Origin: Acidobacteriota bacterium
GTDB taxonomy: Bacteria; Acidobacteriota; Terriglobia; Terriglobales; Acidobacteriaceae
NCBI GenBank assembly: GCA_003225175.1
Contig: QIBA01000057.1
Span: 124,001-188,000, forward strand
DNA length: 64,000 nt
Reading direction: 5' to 3'
Part shown: piece after piece, positions 24,948-26,210 of the stretch
How the letters are laid out: each line of letters begins with the position of its first letter
Position numbering within the stretch: position 1 is the stretch's first letter
The notes under the pieces: model-generated
What the model was told of the DNA's origin: nothing
Databases searched by the model: none
The model's input: only the letters and a program-made list of their open reading frames with translations
Made by a program: the position numbers and the translations under genes

Positions 24948-25280
24948 ATGAAGCGGTCAACGCTCCTTCTGTTATTTGCCTTAATTTCAAGCTGCGCAAT
25001 TTGTGTCGGTCAAAAGACACTCCGAACAAGTTCAGCGGATGCTGCACGCGGTGAGCGGGGCAAGGAAATCTTCGTCAGCCATGGTTGTGCGCGGTGTCAT
25101 GATGAAGATGGCAACAAGAAGCTGACCGATGGAACAACACTGATCCAGCGCCTCTCGAAGAGCACGGATCCCGAAGCGCGGCTGCAAACGCGACTTCAGG
25201 ATCGCCAGGAGCGTCACGCAGTCATGATGCATCTTCAAGAGACTATTAAACGATTACAATCTTCGACACACAGTCGATAG
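24948..25280 (+). CDS. Small exported monoheme c-type cytochrome
   Basis: 110 residues. A signal peptide (~1-21, MKRSTLLLLFALISSCAICVG) is followed by one heme c attachment site, C47-A-R-C50-H51, in a short cytochrome c fold (GKEIFVSHGCARCHDEDG). Met92 or Met93 in HAVMMHL may serve as distal ligand, but this is inference. The product should carry electrons in the periplasm or be membrane-tethered. GGAGG lies 6-7 bases before the ATG. It lies directly upstream of the predicted selenoprotein, so the two may share a redox context, but a 141-base gap separates them. Confidence 0.85.
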   Translation: MKRSTLLLLFALISSCAICVGQKTLRTSSADAARGERGKEIFVSHGCARCHDEDGNKKLTDGTTLIQRLSKSTDPEARLQTRLQDRQERHAVMMHLQETIKRLQSSTHSR

Positions 25281-25421
25281 TCGGTTGCTCTCGGTCGTCT
25301 GAATGGCAGCCTCCGACGCAGAGCCGTCTCGGTGGCAAAATTTCCGGCGGTTCTGATGTAGAGTTGTATTACCATATCGGGCAATTTTTAGGTTCTGCAT
25401 TTCAACGCAAGTGGAGGTTCT

Positions 25422-26210
25422 GTGAGTCCCAGAGCTTGGAATTGGCGGTTGTGGGTTGGATTTCTTATTTGCCTGCTCAGTCCGTTTGCGTTCTTCTCCC
25501 TTTTTGAAATCACGCGCTCTGCTGTCTGGATCAGCGTGGCTTTATTCGTTATCGCTGCGGTGCTCATCGTTGGCGGATTGCAGCGGACCTACTCCGCACC
25601 TGAGTCTTACCGCGGAAGGATTGCGGGCCCGATTGTGGTTACGCTCAGCGTTCTTGTGATGGCGCTGTTCGCCTTCGGAATGTATGAGATGAAGAAGGCC
25701 TATCCTGTCGCCAAGAATGCACCTCAGGTCGGGCAGAAGGCTCCCGAATTTGCGCTCACAGACAGCAACAACAAGAACGTGAAGCTTGCAGAACTGCTCT
25801 CAACTCCACTGTCTGAATCCTCAGGCAGTGCGCCGGCGAGGCGGGGTGTTCTGCTTGTATTCTATCGAGGATATTGGTGAGGGCCATGCGTCTCCGAGTT
25901 ACGGAGCATTCAACGTACGCTTGGCTCTCTTCAACAACTCGGCGTTCGCCCTGTAGCCATCAGCGCTGATACACCTGAAGAATCCCGCGAGATGTGTCGC
26001 AAGGCCGGTATTACATTCCCGGTTCTCTCTGATACGAAGGTGGAAGCCATTCGCCAATACGATCTGCTTATTGCGCAAAGAGGACAAGACGGTCGCGAAA
26101 TTAGCGGTCCCGGAGAATTCTTGCTGGATAGCAGCGGCACCGTTCGCTGGCGCAAACTAACGGAAATGCATCCGCGCGAAATTACCGAAGCGGCAAAGGT
26201 CCTGCAATAG
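25422..26210 (+). CDS. Predicted selenoprotein: membrane-anchored thioredoxin-fold/AhpC-TSA protein with Sec-Gly-Pro-Cys site
   Basis: 262 residues if TGA at 25878-25880 is read as selenocysteine (residue 153). The N-terminus has three membrane segments (~10-30, 35-52, 68-88). The thioredoxin-fold domain starts near 100 (VGQKAPEFALTDSNNKNVKL) and reads VLLVFYRGYW-Sec-GPC-VSELRSIQ, then VRPVAISADTPEESR, ITFPVLSDTK and GEFLLDSSGTVRW. AhpC/TSA-type proteins have Cys at exactly this TGA position (FYRGxWCPxC), and the frame continues uninterrupted for 109 codons after it. A SECIS-like hairpin follows. GTG start with GGAGG 4 bases upstream. The alternative is a Cys-to-stop nonsense mutation. No sel genes are in the window. 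Confidence 0.72.
25886..25909 (+). promoter_or_regulatory. Putative bacterial SECIS hairpin
   Basis: Beginning 5 bases after the in-frame TGA: lower stem AUGC/GCAU, a 3-base bulge GUC containing U, upper stem UCCG/CGGA and apical loop AGUUA with a GU. The upper stem starts 12 bases after the UGA, near the ~11 bases known for the E. coli minimal SelB-binding hairpin. Folded by eye. Confidence 0.6.

Follow-up and report, generated by a model that had tools for sequence, protein, structure and literature searches.

A predicted membrane-tethered UxxC selenoprotein encoded across an in-frame TGA in an Acidobacteriota genome

A frame of 262 codons in an Acidobacteriota genome is interrupted by one TGA, which raises the question of whether this codon is a stop or stands for selenocysteine (Sec), and what the uninterrupted product would do. 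The frame lies in a window of 64,000 nucleotides, the whole stretch of DNA that was analysed. A sequence-only reading had predicted a selenoprotein with Sec at residue 153, and had suggested searching the genome for sel genes, comparing relatives at the TGA and folding the RNA behind it. Our analysis indicates that the UGA of this membrane-tethered redox protein is very probably read as selenocysteine, and Sec at residue 153 is supported by the recurrence of the TGA in homologs, by the sel genes and by a hairpin. The features of the locus are given in Table 1.

Table 1. Features of the predicted selenoprotein gene, in window positions except for the first line
Feature	Position	Strand	Remarks
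Genome segment (the window)	C57:124001-188000		5.73-Mb genome, 268 contigs, 98.9% complete
Selenoprotein gene, 262 residues with the TGA read through	25422..26210	+	GTG start, in-frame TGA, TAG stop
Probable ribosome-binding site GGAGG, 4 nt 5' of GTG	25413..25417	+	GGAGG read directly; function probable
Probable membrane anchor of three hydrophobic helices (residues 10-28, 35-53, 67-85)	25449..25676	+	hydropathy and AlphaFold2
AhpC/TSA domain, residues 103-243	25728..26150	+	PF00578, 86.5 bits, cut-off 26
TGA, predicted selenocysteine 153	25878..25880	+	TGA aligned in 27/30 phylum homologs, Cys in 3
Cys156, which probably resolves Sec153 (UxxC)	25887..25889	+	Cys in 27/27 Sec and 39/39 Cys homologs
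SECIS apical hairpin, stem CUCCG/CGGAG, loop AGUUA at 25897-25901	25892..25906	+	16 nt after the TGA
Extended hairpin predicted for the window gene	25879..25929	+	-25.5 kcal/mol, z -4.5
Pro230, aligned with the active-site Arg of peroxiredoxins	26109..26111	+	alignment with AhpE and Bcp4

The interrupted frame and its homologs

The frame runs through 152 codons, the single TGA and a further 109 codons to its TAG, as had been read from the sequence, and the read-through product contains FYRGYW-U-GPC-VSEL, with a UGPC motif at the TGA. The open frame alone is no evidence, since a six-frame scan of the window found 35 TGAs, this one included, that are flanked on either side by 70 or more open codons. 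Profile searches matched the full read-through protein to PF00578 as given in Table 1, and also to PF08534 (63.7 bits). The 109 residues after the TGA matched PF00578 on their own (56 bits, E 4.9e-15) from profile position 40 on, which agrees with the earlier statement that family sequence is kept downstream, and the first 152 residues alone matched no family at E ≤ 0.01. At the level of sequence, it is this family match across the TGA that goes beyond chance. A standard gene caller would stop at the TGA and lose the active site together with most of the domain. In the whole window, Rfam gave no match at gathering scores and ARAGORN found no tRNA.

We searched 396 genomes sampled from the phylum for homologs (E ≤ 1e-15, at most six candidates scored per genome) and obtained 30 matches in 28 genomes. 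Exactly one TGA was present in 27 of these and none in the other three; all 27 TGAs align to residue 153, where the three TGA-less homologs have Cys, so that the proposed comparison with relatives came out in favor of Sec. Arg149, Gly150, Trp152 and Cys156 are identical in all 27 Sec rows. A second search, of the genome_contigs collection with six peptide patterns, returned 36 loci, mainly from Bacteroidota and Acidobacteriota, all with Cys at residue 153. One of the patterns, VFYRGYWC, has C in place of Sec and favored Cys forms, so the frequency of Sec can hardly be judged from these 36 loci with their invariant FYRGYWC; they establish that Cys homologs exist and are not proof that Sec is rare elsewhere. 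Among plasmid records, 85 had a match, all below 60% identity, with ResA and 'peroxiredoxin-like' proteins among the matches listed.

With standard decoding the frame terminates at 25880, as expected if the TGA were a true stop or a sequencing error and the locus a split gene or pseudogene. The TGA form is, however, present in 26 genomes, which makes a sequencing error untenable, and the downstream part has its own match to PF00578. In four comparisons downstream of the TGA, differences at codon positions 1, 2 and 3 amounted to 0.35-0.39, 0.27-0.34 and 0.59-0.62, so that substitutions concentrate at third positions in a protein-like pattern. On the recurrence of the TGA, the downstream family match and the codon pattern we rejected a split gene or sequencing error, a reading of negligible probability.

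The alignment at residue 153 comprised 27 TGA and 39 Cys rows, 36 of the latter from the Cys-favoring search; the counts include all 66 rows, and the tree was built on 189 of 231 columns. Mapping the Sec or Cys label on this tree requires four changes, at least three of which are forced by well-supported branches. One Cys homolog from Acidobacteriia (L052), the closest named relative on the tree and the one that points to Acidobacteriota as the phylum, nests among the close Sec group (support for the group of seven, 95/92). Its branch with the Sec homolog L032 has a support of 89/83, which makes a Sec-to-Cys change there likely, not certain.

Selenocysteine machinery and the SECIS-like hairpin

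The search for sel genes proposed beforehand was positive throughout. The source genome encodes selA (554 bits, cut-off 268), selB (377 bits, cut-off 242), selD (371 bits, cut-off 125) and a tRNA-Sec (64 bits, gathering score 47) whose anticodon, assigned by ARAGORN, is UCA. The selD gene itself contains one TGA, in AAGUASK. Across the 396 phylum genomes, 276 had a selA match (250 above the cut-off), among them 25 of the 26 TGA-bearing genomes (E ≤ 9.5e-121); the association of selA with the TGA form had a Fisher p of 8.9e-5, uncorrected for kinship. The only TGA genome without a selA match (G140) has a 332-bit selB fragment at a contig end. Two genomes with the Cys form only (G347 and G040) had neither a selA match nor a selB above the cut-off. 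The selB gene was sought in six relatives, and exceeded the cut-off in G009, G140 and G177; in G350, a TGA genome with selA, none was found above the cut-off in its 820 contigs.

Some bacteria have UGA-reading tRNAs other than tRNA-Sec, and a special tRNA of this kind could insert cysteine or tryptophan at the UGA instead of selenocysteine. Among 12 tRNA genes at eight loci (the best 8 of 15 matches), however, only tRNA-Sec had the UCA anticodon; tRNA-Cys and tRNA-Trp at the same loci had GCA and CCA. A hairpin is also associated with the TGA genes, as described below, and we regard such decoding as very improbable.

Folding of the 54 nt from the TGA (25878-25931), as had been suggested, yielded the structure and energy of the extended hairpin in Table 1, and none of 200 shuffled sequences was as stable. 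The fold has a bulged U at 25887 and an apical loop AGUUA. The U bulge and the GU-containing loop had been foreseen by the sequence-only reading; its upper stem of 4 bp has to be corrected to 5 bp (25892-25896 paired with 25902-25906). Measured against bacterial SECIS criteria, the window gene thus has 5 bp, loop AGUUA, a spacing of 16 nt and the minimum free energy given above. The consensus of 12 close relatives holds only the apical part, and the lower stems of the window gene are absent from it. A 5-bp hairpin with loop AGUUA or AGUUG, 16 nt after the TGA, was found in all 12 close Sec homologs (L021-L032) and in none of the 39 Cys homologs. All 60 stem cells pair, compared with 27-65% after a shift of the partner strand by one to three columns. 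In L031, two pairs have changed on both sides with pairing kept, and three rows have a U-G pair. The covariation of the hairpin is thin: both double changes come from the single row L031, and 14 of 500 shuffles equalled it. The Leu codon of the loop is TTA in eight and TTG in four of the 12 close Sec homologs; elsewhere in these genes, TTA and TTG make up 2% and 11%, together 13%, of 340 Leu codons, figures uncorrected for kinship.

In a second Sec group (L033-L039) the hairpin differs; all seven members form five of five pairs, with zero variation. We scanned all homologs with a simplified form of a published bacterial SECIS model (PMC13188914), requiring contiguous pairs, at least five with three G-C, and no energy term. 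A SECIS-like hairpin was detected in 26 of 27 Sec homologs, the exception being L041, and in 7 of 39 Cys homologs, a contrast that is partly due to kinship and base composition because the Cys controls are mostly distant Bacteroidota. The closest Cys control, L052, fails to form two of the five pairs, and its loop lacks GU; this Cys homolog among Sec homologs, with SECIS stem and loop broken, probably underwent a Sec-to-Cys change. With both Sec and Cys lineages, and a broken SECIS among the Sec ones, the family offers a good case for studying the gain and loss of selenium.

Active site, fold and membrane topology

Peroxiredoxins are defined by a Thr or Ser three residues before the peroxidatic Cys or Sec together with an active-site Arg, and it is the Thr and the Arg that activate peroxide. 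The sequence-only reading had placed the TGA exactly at the redox Cys of AhpC/TSA-type proteins. HMMER alignments with AhpE and Bcp4 lead to a different register: the Thr of the peroxiredoxin motif lies opposite residue 153, and it is Cys156 that faces the peroxidatic position, which is Cys in AhpE and 2ywn and Ser in 3hjp. The same register was obtained against three TxxU paralogs of the source genome, with their Thr at 153 and their peroxidatic residue at 156, while the first Cys of the ResA CxxC faces residue 153. The peroxiredoxin Arg is faced by Pro230, which may correspond to the cis-Pro of thioredoxin folds. Of the 27 Sec homologs, 21 have Pro at this position and 3 have Arg; among the 39 Cys homologs, 34 have Pro. 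At the two defining positions of peroxiredoxins, the window protein therefore has Sec153 and Pro230 instead. Judged by these alignments, the motif is a thioredoxin/ResA-like UxxC, and Sec153 does not take the place of the peroxidatic residue in AhpC/TSA peroxiredoxins.

The AlphaFold2 model (mean pLDDT 82.5) places residue 153 just before the helix of residues 154-165. The model matched the structures of Bcp4, AhpE and ResA with E of about 1e-12. The UxxC motif, Pro230 and these fold matches make a UxxC selenol with Cys156 as its resolving partner the best reading.

The same Sec protein might instead be a peroxidase, a selenol peroxiredoxin outside the cytoplasm, in which Sec153 reduces hydroperoxides and Cys156 resolves. 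Selenols react fast with peroxides, the best structural matches are the peroxiredoxins Bcp4 and AhpE, and the best Pfam match is AhpC-TSA. The peroxide-activating pair is replaced, however, with Sec153 in place of Thr and Pro230 in place of Arg, and the TxxU motif of peroxiredoxins is retained in the three paralogs of this genome. A peroxidase is on this evidence the less likely reading of the two. On the best reading of the sequence, the product would be tethered to the membrane and act as a UxxC selenol-disulfide (perhaps peroxide) oxidoreductase of the known 'Prx-like UxxC' kind.

The hydropathy of the three N-terminal segments is 2.18 (residues 10-28), 2.72 (35-53) and 2.45 (67-85), and AlphaFold2 models N-terminal helices at 8-18, 20-57 and 61-92, with pLDDT under 50 at 19-28. 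Arg4 and Arg9 at the N-terminus, together with Arg55, Arg64 and Arg66 in the loop that joins the second and third helices, favor an N-inside orientation with the domain outside the cytoplasm; lysines 91, 92 and 98 follow helix 3, and the positive-inside argument is not clean. Of the earlier proposal, the three N-terminal helices are borne out as hydrophobic segments, and the extracytoplasmic domain is favored by the charges and blurred by the lysines after helix 3. The three helices thus suggest, in a topology drawn from hydropathy, that the domain lies outside the cytoplasm.

Start codons of the relatives were chosen by a simple rule, which makes helix counts rough. At least three helices were counted in eight of the 12 close Sec homologs and zero to two in the other four, including L032, whose chosen start probably lies inside the protein. 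Outside the close group, three helices were counted in 2 of 15 Sec homologs. The predicted three-helix anchor thus marks the close group and not all Sec homologs. A hydrophobic segment beginning within the first five residues was found in 17 of 39 Cys homologs, and such segments would agree with an extracytoplasmic site.

The gene neighborhood in the window was compared with those of 20 relatives, drawn from the 26 other Sec loci, with frames overlapping the gene left out. Two neighbor families recurred in 4 of the 21 loci, comprising response regulator-like and kinase-like frames as judged by their sequences, and eight families recurred in 2 of 21. As no neighbor is conserved in the 21 loci, we propose no partner gene, and in these 21 neighborhoods no neighbor gene pointed to a substrate. 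In the window, 141 nt upstream of the gene and on the same (+) strand, lies a short c-type-cytochrome-like frame (24948-25280) with one CxxCH haem motif (HGCARCHDEDG), which was unmatched among frames of at least 90 residues in the 20 related neighborhoods.

Taking together what computation gave, namely TGA conservation, the machinery, the SECIS-like hairpin, the UxxC motif and the fold, we assign a probability of about 0.85 to a Sec153 selenoprotein with a three-helix inner-membrane anchor, an extracytoplasmic domain and UxxC redox activity with Cys156; from these results we infer Sec insertion, topology, chemistry, direction and partner. SelB and tRNA-Sec, aided by the downstream hairpin, would insert selenocysteine at the UGA. 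The N-terminal helices would hold the product in the inner membrane with the N-terminus inside, and the AhpC/TSA-fold domain would thereby lie outside the cytoplasm. Sec153, immediately before the first domain helix, would act as the nucleophile and attack a disulfide (or peroxide), after which Sec153 and Cys156 may form a selenenyl-sulfide, to be reset by a reductant.

Other selenoprotein candidates and relation to known families

The source genome has 16 PF00578 matches, seven of which contain one TGA, the window gene included; the match on contig C55 was below the cut-off at first and reached 28.5 bits over a longer frame. Three AhpC/TSA genes (C28:62416-62802, C66:43446-43817 and C63:17868-18269; L109, L110 and L111) each carry one in-frame TGA at the peroxidatic position, in TPGU, TGGU and TPTU, and probably encode Sec peroxiredoxins. 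A deiodinase-like candidate (C33:40717-41151, L112) contains GSYTUPPF and matches PF00837 with 109 bits. Two AhpC-TSA_2 (PF13911) genes, C50:92717-93007 and C55:42719-42982 (L113 and L114), have the TGA in UIFC and UPFC. An in-frame TGA was also found in WAPWUSSC of a thioredoxin-domain protein (C71:8075-8383, L116) and before His in the formate dehydrogenase alpha subunit FdhA (C75:12595-15606, L115). The genome thus holds at least ten selenoprotein candidates by sequence: the seven with PF00578, FdhA, selD and the thioredoxin-domain protein. With Sec at two positions of one fold, UxxC here and TxxU in three paralogs, two chemistries could be compared directly in one cell. The genome also suggests a heavier use of selenium in some Acidobacteriota than their few recorded selenoproteins imply.

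Few selenoproteins are on record for the phylum: a 2006 survey gives four in three families for Acidobacteria (PMC1794560), and a 2025 deep-Sep paper gives three known genes in Occallatibacter riparius (PMC12013277). We found no membrane-anchored UxxC selenoprotein of Acidobacteriota among the open-licence papers listed by our searches. Among the literature matches listed, those for the FYRG motif were only unrelated papers, and 'selenoprotein' was not mentioned together with Solibacter or Koribacter.

The UxxC type itself is already known. According to the corresponding passages, the survey of the Sargasso Sea includes a selenoprotein family distantly homologous to Prx, with UxxC in place of TxxU (PMC1088965), the GOS study a 'Prx-like 1' family (pfam00578, UxxC) of 225 sequences (PMC2398784), and a 2026 catalogue both a Prx-like thiol:disulfide oxidoreductase and a Redoxin family protein with UxxC (PMC13188914), families that also appear in a 2022 review (PMC9312934). 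The window protein shares with the Prx-like UxxC selenoproteins the PF00578 domain and the UxxC in place of TxxU; its likeness to that subfamily, which has WP_010940744.1 and HEU0032618.1 among its reference proteins, is one of description. It differs in its three N-terminal hydrophobic helices, an anchor unmentioned for the known ones in those passages, and in its Acidobacteriota host. The Redoxin family protein resembles it in UxxC and in the PF08534 match, and by its description in PMC13188914 and PMC9312934 may be the same subfamily.

The selenocysteine peroxiredoxins of TxxU type, including the three paralogs, have the same fold and Sec; their Sec, however, occupies the peroxidatic position, three residues downstream of its place here, in a motif that opens with Thr, and the window protein scored 29.7 with the PrxU model NF040737 (cut-off 270). 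A related domain with Sec occurs in deiodinase-like, SelL-related and AhpC-TSA_2 selenoproteins, and on the window protein the SelL-related model NF040769 reached 38.8 bits (cut-off 120). ResA is a membrane-tethered, extracytoplasmic protein with Cys and one anchor helix. Besides the alignment of its first CxxC Cys with Sec153 and the structural match, the window protein would share its tethering and location; it differs from the Cys and single anchor helix of ResA, and the ResA model NF002854 gave 54.8 bits (cut-off 170).

The membrane anchor may mark a subfamily among the known UxxC selenoproteins of PF00578. It is conceivable, and a tentative suggestion, that this is an uncatalogued Acidobacteriota subfamily of polytopic-membrane-anchored, extracytoplasmic UxxC proteins with a SECIS of its own (CUCCG/CGGAG, AGUUR), in bacteria that would have a much larger selenoproteome than is on record for the phylum and would depend partly on selenium for redox control outside the cytoplasm. 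Set against known systems, the protein joins the bacterial selenoproteins already described as a well-supported new relative and does not represent a new type of system.
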